Of a stretch of DNA of 64,000 bases, positions 2,368-59,112 are shown one piece after another. The notes beneath the pieces were generated by a model. It did no database searches and was not told the origin of the DNA. It worked only from the letters and a program-made list of their open reading frames with translations. This DNA comes from Amphirosellinia nigrospora. Its lineage: Eukaryota > Ascomycota > Sordariomycetes > Xylariales > Xylariaceae. Each line of letters opens with the position of its first letter. Positions within the stretch are counted from its first letter, which is position 1. The stretch spans positions 3,960,001 to 4,024,000 of the forward strand of contig SCHM01000001.1 of NCBI GenBank assembly GCA_004123355.1, in the 5' to 3' direction. The position numbers and the translations under genes were made by a program.

Positions 2368-3466
2368 TCAGTAGATTACAGTGTCCTCATCCTCCTCAAT
2401 CATGACATCATCAGCTCTATCAGAATCTTTATCAGGTCCGACCTTATTAGTAGCGCGTGAAGAGGGACGATTAGTAGACTCAGGTTGTGGCTTGTCAGCA
2501 GGTTGTTCATCATTGGGTTTACCCACTGTCTCGTCTTTCTCTGGGAGCGATGGTCTTGGCGCAATGCTCGGGCTATGCAGGCGCGGTTCTTTGCGCTCTT
2601 TGAATTCCAAAACCTCTTTCTTGATGTTATTTTCGACCTGCTGAATCTGGTCCTGTATTCTGTCTTTCTGCGACCTGGTGAGTTCATATGGCCGGTAGAA
2701 CTGTTATGATCGTTAGTAGCTACCAAGATTATACATGTTAGGCTGGCTGGTGGACATACAATCTTTGGTTTGGTTTCTGTTTGCAGATACTGGGCCTTGG
2801 CTAGCATATCGGCGTGCTTGGTTTTCATCTACATATTCCAGTAAGTCATGCGCTCTCCTAGTTGGATCGAGCCCCTGAAAGACACGAGGAGAGGTGGGCC
2901 ACATACAACTTGTTCGTCGAATTTGAGTTGCTCAGCTTTGCGCACAGCTTCTAGCTTGGAAAGCCTCTGCGTGCGCAAACGGTCTTCTTCGGCTCGTTGT
3001 TGCGTCGATTTTGCCTGCTGTCGTCGCTCAATGTCTTGACGCTTCCTATGTTGCGAGCCAGCACTGGCCTGGTTTAGGGTATTCATCAGACCGCCTAGTA
3101 ACCGTTTCCCACGCTTCTTCTCTTCCTGACGTGCTATCTCTCGGCGGTCCGTGCCTGGGGCTACTGTAGATTGAGGTCGGGGCTCGCGTCTCGCGTCCAT
3201 CTTCTCGCCATCTACTTTGGCCCGTTTGGCGGATTTAGGGGTCTCGTCGTCAGGCGAAGCGGGTGGTGATGCTTTGCGCTTCTGTTGCGCATCGGTGGCA
3301 GGAGGGCCTTGGTTGTGCTCGTCGGTGGACTCATGTCCGGATTCGGCCAATTTGCCATTAGCATCGCGGCGGACCGGGGAGCTAGATGTTGACCGCGCGG
3401 TTAGGATGCCGCATGGAGCAGGATAATATGAAGCTAATTGTCTGCTTACCCTTCGTAGGCTGACAT
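2368..3466 (-). CDS. pinin/SDK/MemA domain protein
   Basis: Four exons: 3466-3450, 3381-2907, 2828-2760 and 2700-2368, which join without a break to 297 aa. The first exon is only 17 nt (MSAYEG). The N-terminal ~75 residues are acidic and low-complexity with a basic KSAKRAKVDGEK patch. The pinin/SDK/MemA core follows: a GKRLLGGLMNTLNQ box, then a long basic/acidic coiled coil (about residues 100-165), then QTETKPKIFYRPYELT, where the family has its TKPPLYYRP-like motif. The C-terminal ~80 residues are disordered and Ser/Pro/Asp-rich. The family is nuclear and tied to pre-mRNA splicing and the exon-junction machinery. Introns 2 and 3 have clear branch sites (GACTTAC, TACTAACG). It is divergent to the PHF5A gene. 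The exact partner complex is inferred. Confidence 0.86.
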
Positions 3467-4213
3467 GGCGTCGGAGGGCGGAGATAATGCAAAGGTAATG
3501 AACAACTCGGACCTGAAAAGAAGGCTATGTATGCTGAACTGGGTTAGAAATTAACAATGGAACACCCCGCGAGCCGTCGACGTTTCCGGTTCTGGATGGG
3601 TTTAGTTCACAACAATTATTTGTGGTTGGAAAAGCGAGAATACCATGTGTAAACATCTAGATGGTTGTTCAATACATATCTACCAGTCTATCTACAAGGC
3701 AGGTAGTTGGAGATTGCGAGGGGAGAAATGTCAAGAGACAGACGTTAGGTACTTGGCAAGTAGCGTTGCAAGCCGAAACCCAGGCGCGGCGACCTGGTGT
3801 ACCCGCTACATATGCGGCCTGTAGCAGGAGATACAGCACGCTCATCCACATATTCACAGTGGATCGAGTGGATCTCATCAGCATATTTAGCGGCATGAGA
3901 TCAGCCCCAACCCCTGCTTATCGCCTGCCTAGGTACTTAGGACTGCCCCACCACAGCTGTATGACCTTCAAGGTTATTTAGAAAAGTTAAGCAAGTGGCA
4001 AGGCTGAGAAATCCAAAACACCATTATCGCATTTACTGTCTCGCCTAGGTAGCCTTACGGACCCTTCCCTTCTTTCTTCCTTCACTCATTTAAATATCGC
4101 ACGACACCTCTCTACATCCACATCCACGTCCACGTCCGCGTCCACGCCCCATATCTAGATTATCATTAATCAGTCTTCATCAAGGCTAATCTAACAAATC
4201 ACGAAAGACAAAC
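3467..4213. promoter_or_regulatory. shared upstream region of the divergent pinin-like and PHF5A genes
   Basis: This 747 bp stretch separates two start codons that point away from each other, so it must hold both promoters. It contains a pyrimidine-rich stretch and a degenerate TCCACG hexamer array at about 4114-4148, just inside the PHF5A 5' leader. No other coding signal is convincing; the ORFs at 3661-3981 on both strands look like chance. Confidence 0.45.
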
Positions 4214-4713
4214 ATGTCGCGCCATCATCCGTAAGTATCCACCCATGGTCGCTCTCAAGGCCCTTAGAGGCGTAGCTAACACCTGCTCCTTACAGCGATC
4301 TCGTTATGTGCCGCAAGCAATCTGGCATCGCCATCGGTCGCCTGTGCGACAAGTGCGACGGCAAGTGTCCGGTCTGCGATTCGTACGTGCGCCCCACGAC
4401 GCTGGTACGCATCTGCGACGAGTGCAGCTTCGGCAACTACCAGAACAAGTGTGTCGTGTGCGGTGGCGAGGGTATCTCGGACGCGTTCTACTGCTTCGAG
4501 TGTACGCGCCTCGAGAAGGACCGCGACGGGTGCCCCAAGATCATAAATCTTGGTAGTTCACGGACAGACGTGAGTGTCCCTGTCCCCTTACTTTCTTTTC
4601 CCCCTACGCCCGGTCACGTGCGTAGTTGGTCGTATTGGTAGACACTTACTAACCGCTTCCCTTCTTTACCACAGTTGTTTTATCAAAAGAAAACGAATCG
4701 GACGGGCTACTAG
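4214..4713 (+). CDS. phf5a: PHF5A/Rds3, SF3b splicing subunit
   Basis: Three exons: 4214-4230, 4296-4569 and 4675-4713, giving 109 aa, essentially the universal length (110). It is a zinc-cluster protein with CxxC pairs at [27 protein letters not shown] and CFECTR, and a basic C-terminal tail ending [11 protein letters not shown]5A/Rds3 is a core subunit of SF3b in the U2 snRNP. It contacts SF3B1 next to the branch-site adenosine pocket. Exon 1 is 17 nt, and both introns have standard ends. No frame disruption is seen in this very conserved gene, which makes it a useful quality control for the window. The extra plus-strand frame across 4574-4879 is intron and 3' UTR, not coding. Confidence 0.97.
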
Positions 4714-12352: not shown

Positions 12353-13514
12353 GTTCTGCGGTAGGGTGCTGCGCCTTCTCCGTAGATTGGGAGAAAGGGA
12401 CTGGACTGCAGCAATGGGTCGTCGTCCAAATCACAAGGGTGCAGTTTAGATGGCCTGCGACCCGAATTGAGTCGTTCACTTTTTTTCGGAGCTTCCCTGA
12501 CTAGCCGTGGCTTGAAGAGGGGCAGGTTGACTTACAAGCCACAAGTATAAGAGGACAAAGTTGGACTGGCACCTGGCAGATTCTTCGCTAAGGGATTTTA
12601 GGCAGAATTTATAGTGCTTAAAGTATTATTAAGTATGTGTGTTAGGTTTTTTTAGTACGTAGAAGGTTTCCGCGGGCTAGGTCGACAGAGCTTTATATAC
12701 GTAGGTTTATTAAGGTTTGCGCGTATGTTCGTATGTTCGTAGAAGTTTGCTTTGTAGGTGTATATGTGTGGCACCTAGTGTGGCACCCAGGTATTGGGCG
12801 CCACAGTGGATGGTTGCCCGGCAAGCAGGTCTTTGTACCATGACTTGCCCACTGTAATTAGGTATATATATTTGCCTTTTTTTCTAGAGTAGAGGTTAGC
12901 GCAGAGCGCATGCCCCCCCAAAATTTAAAAAGAAACCAAAACTGTAGTTTTCGCGGTGTAGCCGCCTAGCGCTAAAGGCAACTCTAAATCTATATATAAA
13001 ACTGCTAGGCAGCGATGTACCAACCCATTTTCTGTAGGTAACTCGTGCACGGATAACCTCAGGTAAGCTACCTAGGAGGGACTACCCTCAGTTGATATGT
13101 AGACTCAAGCTGGGCAATGCATAAAAGTCGATTTCCGGGCTTGAGAAATTTCAACTTGGTTAGGCAAATAACCTGCAATACATAGGTTAGGCTTTCGCAA
13201 GGCTATATATAAGATAGATGATTTAATCGGCCCATGCCCTGGTCCTCGGTGTTACCTACTTACATTTTACTCTGTCTACGACCAGTAAACCCTTCTACAC
13301 CAACGATTCTCGCCATCCTTCCAAGTAGTATCTTCAGCCTCAAAGAATCCGCTCCCTTTTTGCGACCCGTCTCTCAAGGTGGTTATTTTGGCACCACCCT
13401 CCGTAGGTGCCTCGAGCGACACCTCTGGCGAAATCTCTGGGCACGCATACTTTCACCAACCCTCTCGCAGGTTCTATTTTCCCTAGGATCGGTTCTCCCT
13501 TCTACTACGATACA
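12353..13514. other. intergenic with a repeat-like TACGTAGG/GCGCGTATGTTCGTA patch
   Basis: AT-rich DNA. Bases 12650-12780 carry degenerate TACGTAGG and GTTCGTA units, including a 15-base string (GCGCGTATGTTCGTA) that also occurs in the foldback element near 58624. Around 12880-13010 is a C-run and TATATATA-bearing stretch of unknown origin. An ORF at 13234-13734 overlaps the 5' end of the next gene in another frame and is not supported. Confidence 0.4.
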
Positions 13515-57331: not shown

Positions 57332-57473
57332 TAATTTATGGTCGAGCTTACATACATATTCAAGTGCAACTGTTGTCAAGGCCCGTGGAACTCCCATCTT
57401 GGCCTTCGTTGTGGATCTTGCATGCATGCTTTCTGTCACGGTTGCCGCACCGAGTAGCGAAAGAGCCATTATA

Positions 57474-57561
57474 CACTAGTTTCCAATCGAAATGTCGCGC
57501 CCCACCCACACTTTCTGTGGTGTGTGTGTGTCATTTTGGGAAACACATCGACAATAGCATT
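57474..57561 (+). repeat. left terminal inverted repeat
   Basis: About 88 bp, ending near ACAATAGCATTTTTT. It contains a (GT)n stretch (57520-57531) one GT unit longer than in the right end. Confidence 0.88.
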
Positions 57562-57787
57562 TTTTTTTTGTAAATTAATACAATTAGCATTTAATTATTT
57601 AAAAATACGTTTTCTAGCTCGGAACAGCGATTCTTGTATATCTAGAACTTTTATAGCCCTCGAAAACAGCGTTTTTAGTACTTATACCTTCGAAACAGCG
57701 TATTTTATGCTAACAGCTTTAAAACAGCGTTTCTACGCCCTCAGAGCCTACGAAGCCCTTGAACACGCGTTTTACGTGCCTTCGTAG

Positions 57788-58247
57788 CCCTTACAGACCT
57801 ACGAACACACACGCAGACCTCTACAGACCTACGAACACGCGCGTAAACCTCTACAACCTACGAACACGCGCGCAGACCTCTATAGACCTACGAACACGCG
57901 CGCAGACCTACGCAGACCTACGAACACCTACGCAGACTTCTACAGACCTCCGAACACGCGCGCAAACCTACGCAGACCTACGCGCACAGTGGCAGAAGGT
58001 CTGGCGAAGGGGCTGTTGATCTAGCCACACAGACCTACGCGTACGGTGGCAGGGTCGCGAAGGGTCTGGCGATCTAGCCACACAGACCTACGCAGACCTA
58101 CGCAGACCTCTACAGACCTACGAGTGCCTACGCAGACCTACGTAGACCTACGAAGACCTACGCAGACCTCTACAGACCTACGAACACACGCGGAGACCTC
58201 TACAGACCTACGCGTACGAGGCTATCAACCTAGCCCCGCGTAAACCC
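57788..58247 (+). repeat. left tandem array, CAGACCTACG units
   Basis: About 20 variable copies of CAGACCTACG, alternating with CAGACCTCTA and linked by AACACGCGCG or CGCGTACG. Two copies of a module GTGGCAG...CTGGCGA...GATCTAGCC lie at about 57987-58025 and 58048-58082. Reading frames through the array give repeated DLRTRAQT-type peptides, an effect of the repeat and not a gene. Confidence 0.85.
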
Positions 58248-58296
58248 ACGCGCACGGGCCAATACGCACAGACCAGTCCTTTTTTAGTACGCATAG

Positions 58297-58650
58297 GGTC
58301 TACGCGGGGCTAGGTCTGCGTAGGCGCTCGTAGGTCTGCGTAGGTCTACGTAGGTCTGCGCGCGTGTTCGGAAGTCTGCAGAGGTCTGCGTAGGTCTGCG
58401 TAGGTCTGTGTGCTAGATCGCCAGACCCTTCGCCAGACCTCTGCCACTCTGTACGCGTAGGTCTGCGTAGGTTTGCGTGGGCGCTCGTAGGTCTGTAGAA
58501 GTATGCGTAGGTGTTTGTAGGTCTACGTAGGTCTGCGCGCGTGTTCGTAGGTCTATAGAGGTCTGCGCGCGTGTTCGTAGGTCTGTAGAGGTCTGCGCGC
58601 GTGTTCGTAGGTCTGTAGAGGTCTGCGCGTATGTTCGTAGGTCTATATAT
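58297..58650 (-). repeat. right tandem array, inverted (CGTAGGTCTG units)
   Basis: The reverse complement of the left array, with one inverted copy of the GATCTAGC...CCAGACC...GCCAC module at about 58414-58450. The inner edges pair closely: TAGCCCCGCGTAAACCC at 58231-58247 against GGGTCTACGCGGGGCTA at 58297-58313, leaving a ~49 bp loop. Confidence 0.83.
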
Positions 58651-58800
58651 ATACGTTTAAAACAACGTAATATAGTAATTTATTCTTCGAATATAACACA
58701 TATAAAAATAAAACTTATTTCTTTAGATAGGTAGTAAAAAGAGCTTTATTTTAATATATTATATTTGTTTTTAGGATTATTATTCGTTCAATAATGTTAA

Positions 58801-58888
58801 AAAACGCTATTGTCGTTGTGTTTCCCAAAATGACACACACACCACAGAAAGTGTGGGTGGGGCGCGACATTTCGATTGGAAACTAGTG
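58801..58888 (-). repeat. right terminal inverted repeat
   Basis: Reverse complement of the left end over about 88 bp, finishing GGAAACTAGTG at 58888 just before TA. Confidence 0.87.
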
Positions 58889-59112
58889 TAGCCCCAAATA
58901 GCTAGCTTGATCAGACGCATGCCCACTTCTCTATCCTACCTTGGGCAATATAACCACCATAAACATTATGGAGAATTTCCCCCTATTAAAATCATGTGCA
59001 GATGGTACTGTGTGACTGTGCTCTTACAGCGAAGCCCGCGGCCTACAATTCCTCAACTCTCTAGAAATGCCTCTGGAGATATAGTCCGCAATAGCCACTA
59101 CAACATTCGGGG

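Follow-up and report, generated by a model that had tools for sequence, protein, structure and literature searches.

Anatomy of the element

The element lies at positions 57474 to 58888 of the window, by which we mean the whole 64-kb stretch of DNA analysed here (positions 3960001-4024000 of contig C1); the genome searched comprises 48.1 Mb in 11 contigs. It is 1415 bp long, starts with CACTAG at 57474, ends with CTAGTG at 58888 and is complete, being bounded by inverted ends (TIRs). The window holds the following parts of the element and, further upstream, a relic of its family.

12647-12765, plus strand: degenerate half copy of a family member, retaining some array units and a portion of an apex
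57472-57473, no strand: TA target dinucleotide, left flank, read from the sequence
57474-57566, plus strand: left TIR, 96% identity to the right TIR
57567-57790, plus strand: left subterminal region with repeats of about 29-30 nt (..CGAAAACAGCGTTTTTAG..), common to the long mates
57791-58228, plus strand: left arm of tandem 10-nt (CAGACCTACG) and 30-nt units
57989-58028, plus strand: GTGGCAG..GATCTAGCCAC module, copy 1
58046-58081, plus strand: GTGGCAG..GATCTAGCCAC module, copy 2
58212-58317, no strand: hairpin apex region, found by DNA search at 15 loci
58299-58644, minus strand: right arm of inverted tandem 10- and 30-nt units
58410-58447, minus strand: GTGGCAG..GATCTAGCCAC module, inverted copy within the right arm
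58645-58797, plus strand: right subterminal region, AT-rich (18% GC), at 11 loci, all of them array elements
58797-58888, minus strand: right TIR
58889-58890, no strand: TA, right flank

The two TIRs match in 96% of about 93 bp. An earlier note on this DNA had described a TIR transposon with near-identical ends of about 88 bp, a TA on each side, no transposase of its own and two opposed arrays around a loop of about 49 bp, and this description holds in all parts. The arms are indeed inverted copies of each other (for example 57856-57989 and 58449-58582, 134 nt, 93% complementary), the loop measures 48 nt (58248-58295) and is closed by stem halves of 19 nt with one mismatch (58229-58247 and 58296-58314), and the module occurs twice in the left arm and once inverted in the right arm as claimed. 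Inverted tandem-repeat arms around an apex are found in the element as well as in other copies, which bears out the proposed foldback anatomy. Spacers of about 225 nt on the left and about 150 nt on the right, which are not inverted copies of each other, separate the arms from the TIRs. The further statement that the repeats belong to the cargo and are unlike the ends is correct for the element itself but has to be qualified for its family, as the long mates carry tandem arrays in their left subterminal region.

The predicted RNA fold of 57790-58650 reaches -666 kcal/mol; 20 dinucleotide shuffles average -326 (sd 9), and none of them equalled the real sequence (z -36). Scans of the 64-kb window for Rfam families and tRNAs gave no match.

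Copies in the genome and variation of the arms

Searching the genome with the element we found at least 148 matches; this number is a lower bound since 40 of the 60 candidates were scored. The apex region is present at 15 loci (16 matches, two of which lie within one element), and 11 of these loci also have the right subterminal region. Nine array copies, the window copy and eight others, have both TIRs and measure 875-1908 bp; in one of them, L036, the match to the right TIR spans 46 nt only. L035 is a tenth, nearly whole copy whose left TIR was not found by blastn. Thus, both the search for other copies of the ends and the look for varying array length that the earlier note had proposed were successful. 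TA stands on both sides of all 12 elements inspected (the nine array copies and three long mates), and among the 18 flanks of the nine copies, taken with up to 380 nt per side, no similarity was detected at E 1e-5. The dimer AGACCTACGNAGACCTACG has 76 exact occurrences in the genome at 12 loci, all within array elements; allowing one mismatch raises the number to 114 places, of which 100 are among the matches listed, and the reversed control gave 0. A 28-nt piece of the apex is also present in L027. Two family ends at C1:7811939 and C1:7839848 (L020, L021) face each other at a distance of 28 kb and could belong to two elements or to one very large composite.

Inverted arms are a known source of fold-over joins, so that the apex might be suspected to be an assembly artefact. 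Nothing was found here that speaks for such a join. The same apex recurs at 15 loci and in two orientations, the flanks of the nine copies are unshared, and TIRs and TA stand outside both arms. The identical architecture recurs elsewhere in the genome between other flanking sequences; it is therefore no product of chance, and as a general explanation an assembly fold-over can be dismissed. We regard the probability that such a join accounts for the element as negligible.

In two pairs of closely related copies, length differences by whole blocks are confined to the arms. Between the window copy and L029 there are 10 substitutions in 784 nt of arm sequence together with block differences of -43, +11, +10 and -30 nt and seven gaps of 1-2 nt, whereas the 633 nt outside the arms show 4 substitutions and no gap beyond 1-2 nt. 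In L031 and L032 the arms (903 nt compared) show 2 substitutions and two blocks, -228 and -20 nt, and the 661 nt outside show 13 substitutions, again with gaps of 1-2 nt only. The number of whole modules changes as well: in the left arm a single one is found in L029, the window copy has two there and L030 three; the right arm of L030 holds four. A fold across the apex is predicted for all ten copies, with 185-653 pairs.

The apex can point either way relative to the ends. Its orientation is plus in six of the ten copies (the window copy and L029-L033) and minus in the other four (L034, L035, L037 and L036, the last called from its right end alone). When L036 is compared with L033, the shared 20-mers are more frequent crosswise (0.66 and 0.47) than in parallel (0.39 and 0.10), as would be expected if arms and apex had flipped together. 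This joint flip is seen in one pair only; the 20-mer sharing among the ten copies gave no clear arm swap in any other pair. The sharing between left and right arms amounts to 0.32 within the same element (n=10), 0.35 between different elements of the same lineage (n=24) and 0.12 between lineages (n=66), a comparison which is partly circular as the lineages were assigned from the same table. Judged by these values, arm likeness follows lineage. Since the arms within an element are no more alike than those of sister copies (0.32 vs 0.35), arm conversion copy by copy is not demonstrated; L030 with a within-copy sharing of 0.67 is perhaps an exception.

For five lineage representatives the mean pairwise identity is 0.90 in the apex, 0.88 in the right subterminal region, 0.84 in the right TIR and 0.73 in the left subterminal region; the value of 0.67 for the left TIR is distorted by L035, which lacks the left end. 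In this alignment the apex is at least as well preserved as the ends. With five sequences as the basis, its conservation may reflect a function or merely repeated copying.

Long mates, transposase and RIP-like decay

None of the 25 genome matches to the transposase falls inside 57474-58888, so that the element is indeed without a transposase of its own. We found, however, long mates which have the TIRs and the left end of the array family, namely L010 (4364 bp, on the small contig C9), L009 (5155 bp) and L011 (4948 bp). Both ends could be read in these three, and L015 likewise shows both ends. For L010, L009 and L011 the sharing of the left subterminal region is also backed by a purine/pyrimidine comparison. 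The TIRs of L010 are 93% identical to the left TIR of the window element, and its open reading frames match HTH_23 (PF13384, E 1.8e-7) and DDE_3 (PF13358, E 1.4e-7 and 4e-18), the latter of which we take as a marker of the Tc1/mariner (IS630-Tc1-mariner) superfamily. All 25 matches to the N-terminal part of the L010 transposase lie within 13 loci, and at each of these the left end of the window element matches at a distance of 22-2289 nt. Hence the longer mate with a Tc1/mariner transposase that the earlier note had proposed to look for does exist, with 13 of 13 DDE_3-type loci at most 2.3 kb from a left end of the family. A PDB sequence search with the N-terminal part gave no match at E 0.1.

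L010 is the sole copy with a largely open transposase, which is split over two overlapping reading frames. The position at which we would expect the third acidic residue of DDE-type enzymes carries none, and because of this absence the L010 transposase is probably damaged catalytically. Two other mates on C9 (L059 and C9:532011-532462) miss a stretch of about 440 nt (1429-1869 of L010), which holds the C-terminal part of the transposase; this may be a shared internal deletion that spread afterwards. Beside the transposase gene L010 has open frames on the minus strand at 2727-3275 and 3775-4407, partly kept in L059, which possibly represent an accessory gene of the Tc1/mariner element. The two frames gave no Pfam match. 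Between L010 and L059 the differences at codon positions 1/2/3 number 24/22/33 in the first frame and 30/31/37 in the second (14/10/24 in its upstream part), with several gaps; for the N-terminal part of the transposase the counts are 26/15/45.

The 13 fetched transposase loci fall into two groups by GC content, flanks included: the ten on C1, C5, C6 and C8 have 14-28% and the three on C9 have 47-50%. The low GC of the ten loci looks like the outcome of RIP (repeat-induced point mutation; for background see PMC4994206). The mates on the small contig C9 keep their GC, as if this contig had escaped RIP. An escape of the array copies is contradicted by L026, an AT-rich array copy at 2589-3417 (C6:112588-113416) in a locus of 16% GC. 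Its apex and both arm orientations become visible only in a purine/pyrimidine-coded alignment, in which the apex scores 95.5 (shuffle maximum 47.5), the arm 235 and the reversed arm 251 (shuffle maxima 141.5 and 145). As L026 is an array copy, RIP-like decay appears to have affected the array elements too. In the six closest array copies the variable columns of the left subterminal region comprise 24 transitions and no transversion; the corresponding counts are 8/4 in the left TIR, 4/2 in the apex, 12/7 in the right subterminal region and 6/7 in the right TIR. By these counts a RIP-like pattern stands out clearly among the surviving copies in the left subterminal region alone.

The right subterminal region might be taken for a mate end altered by RIP. 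Coded as purines and pyrimidines, it scores 42.5-57.0 against the right ends of four mates, which is within the shuffles for all four (means 46.6-47.0, maxima 59.5-64.0), and this candidate was rejected. Since the region does not appear to derive from the mates compared, the element would be no simple deletion derivative. Together with the apex it is nearly confined to the array copies; the small exceptions are a stretch of 33 nt of it in L028, which is a fragment that includes an end of the family, and some short AT-rich matches that several mate loci gave (E 6e-4 to 4e-6).

Class of the element, origin of the arrays and role of the hairpin

Tc1/mariner elements are known in fungi (PMC4188875). 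The TA found to either side of all 12 elements inspected and the TIRs in common with the DDE_3-coding L010 place the family there. The ends begin with CACTAG, but CACTA/EnSpm elements have a CACTA-type transposase and a variable target duplication of 2-3 bp; this class is ruled out by the 12 of 12 TA sites and the DDE_3 transposase of the mate. Like a MITE the element is non-coding and has TIR and left end in common with longer mates, yet not the right subterminal region; with 875-1908 bp the copies are larger than most MITEs. It has the long inverted tandem-repeat arms around a middle segment of a foldback element, but the tandem repeats are no part of the TIRs themselves, from which the arms are separate. 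MITEs of the Tc1/mariner type and Tc4 of C. elegans use TA-type targets and a Tc1/mariner transposase, and the present family resembles them in its TA targets and, probably, in its use of such a transposase. MITEs are short, however, and Tc4 has long plain arms; we know of no opposed short-period arrays in Tc1/mariner MITEs or Tc4-like elements.

Foldback elements with repeat-bearing arms are already known from Tetris (PMC4079207) and Galileo (PMC3688188). As described in PMC4079207, Tetris of Drosophila virilis is a non-autonomous foldback element with varying numbers of tandem repeats in its inverted arms, a middle segment and no conserved ORFs, all of which also holds for the present family. 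In the same text, however, Tetris has units of about 220 bp inside its TIRs, target duplications of 8-10 bp, an assignment to Mutator by its authors and no autonomous mate found, whereas in the present family units of 10 and 30 nt lie inward of short TIRs, the target sites are TA and the mates are of Tc1/mariner type. Galileo, too, is foldback-like with tandem repeats near its ends; as far as described in PMC3688188 it belongs to the P superfamily and its repeats contain tested transposase-binding sites, while the present family is of Tc1/mariner type and known from sequence. In CMITE of corals the internal region is better conserved between families than the TIRs, which recalls the 0.90 of the apex and the 0.84 of the right TIR found here; CMITE is related to piggyBac, and its abstract mentions no foldback of opposed arrays (PMC2872659). 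Searches of open-licence papers turned up no description of this foldback family. What sets it apart is the combination of Tc1/mariner-type mates, TA sites, opposed short-period arrays apart from the TIRs, an apex and a right end of its own, and inverted centres.

We suggest, with good though not full confidence, that the element is a copy of a non-autonomous foldback-type Tc1/mariner subfamily which is moved in trans and carries as its cargo a hairpin that changes through slippage and through recombination between its arms. The transposase of the long mates would recognize the TIRs of about 93 bp, perhaps also the left subterminal repeats, and would insert the element at TA sites, acting in trans. 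The non-coding interior would have arisen when a short-period array was once duplicated in inverted orientation around the apex. Slippage or unequal exchange within the arms could then alter the array length, and recombination between the complementary arms could invert the centre relative to the ends and keep the arms alike within a lineage. From sequence comparison we demonstrate a family with TA sites, transposase-matching mates, length variation, inverted apices and lineage-wise arm likeness; from these we infer that mobilisation is likely to occur in trans and that recombination probably shapes the arms. The split L010, the two C9 copies without part of the transposase and the ten RIP-like loci count against this reading, as none of them is an evident present source of the transposase.

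For the origin of the arrays there are two rival leads. The left ends of the mates carry tandem arrays just inside the end, in L010 units of about 30 nt with 9-nt units (AGCCCTCGC), a plan resembling the 30-nt and 10-nt units of the cargo. Hence the arrays could be amplified binding sites for the transposase or an accessory protein which would raise the recognition of the short element, as has been suggested for Galileo and Tetris; for Galileo, binding of the transposase domain to repeats within the long TIRs is reported (PMC3688188). The 30-nt unit aligns with the L010 subterminal region in 18 columns with 16 matches, one mismatch and one gap, a score reached by none of 500 target and 1 of 500 query shuffles; among control stretches of 350 nt from the window the sole higher scorer contains the family's own relic. 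Arms compared with the L059 subterminal region were equalled by 0, 0 and 2 of 300 shuffles. However, a profile of 49 distinct array units found no match at E<10 in the 13 transposase loci, a 180-nt arm stretch was matched in score by 9 of 500 target shuffles and by 4 of 500 in which the query was shuffled, 1-18 of 300 shuffles did as well as the arms when these were aligned with L010 and L012, and the purine/pyrimidine-coded arm scored within 20 shuffles for L010 (132.5, maximum 137.0) and L016 (137.5, maximum 139.5). At the level of letters the link is suggestive only and the two sets of repeats are at most weakly alike, so that we consider an origin from mate repeats unlikely. A better case, albeit one that we still regard as doubtful, can be made for an exchange of the array, in either direction, with a short LTR element of no relation to the family, so that the 10-mer array would move between transposon classes; this concerns the origin of the array and is compatible with a foldback element mobilised in trans. 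A TRIM-like LTR element of about 1.2 kb (L072-L075, L077, L078) has an interior array of the same 10-mer, and three left arms compared with its arrays in five copies gave z values of 10-22 with 0 of 300 shuffles equal in all 15 tests. In L078 (60-1294) the array-bearing interior lies between LTRs of 233 nt (TGACACAG..CTGTGTCA) and 220 nt, which have 92-93% identity to the query LTR. On the other side, all 76 exact copies of the dimer are confined to array elements, tandem arrays inflate alignment scores, and convergence on one 10-mer is possible. Module and apex, a candidate for the shared part, were rejected, as the best of 36 tests was equalled by 11 of 300 shuffles. By its alignment scores the sharing of the 10-mer is likely real. 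A repeat with AGGTCTGCGT-type units and seemingly repeated flanks at C6:5047200-5048800 (L044) is perhaps a second LTR family of this kind.

We infer that the hairpin has no selected role of its own, and two readings would give it one. On the first, transcription of the element might yield an extended hairpin RNA, and dicing of this RNA would release small RNAs that silence the element's own family or some other repeat. The extreme predicted fold (z -36), kept in 10 of 10 copies, would suit this, as would the exact matches to the LTR-element copy L074, which run to 24 nt with the window arms and to 26 nt when all arms are taken; for the remaining four of the five LTR-element copies compared they run to 15-18 nt. 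But the tandem 10-mer alone yields long matches, arm likeness is lineage-wise only, and the longest exact match of all arms to the mate loci L010 and L059 (2 of the 13) is 12 nt, which makes silencing of the mates through the arms unlikely. Altogether a silencing role of the RNA seems very improbable to us. Replication stalling, which the earlier note had also put forward, would be a further conjectural effect of the hairpin. Scarcely better is the prospect that arms and apex form a functional, self-renewing hairpin cassette, with arms kept by recombination, a constrained apex and the 10-mer as a site for a host factor or small RNA in common with the LTR element. If this should be true, the working cargo of a DNA transposon would be a hairpin rather than a gene.

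The bulk of our finding is ordinary mobile-element biology. Here the ends of a foldback family link it to Tc1/mariner mates of its own within one genome, with ten near-complete copies and relics, enough to follow how inverted arrays grow, shrink, come to resemble each other and flip. As sufficient copies and their mates are present in one genome, the origin of the foldback anatomy becomes testable; since an LTR element contains the 10-mer array as well, it may also be asked whether arrays of short repeats are exchanged across classes of transposons.
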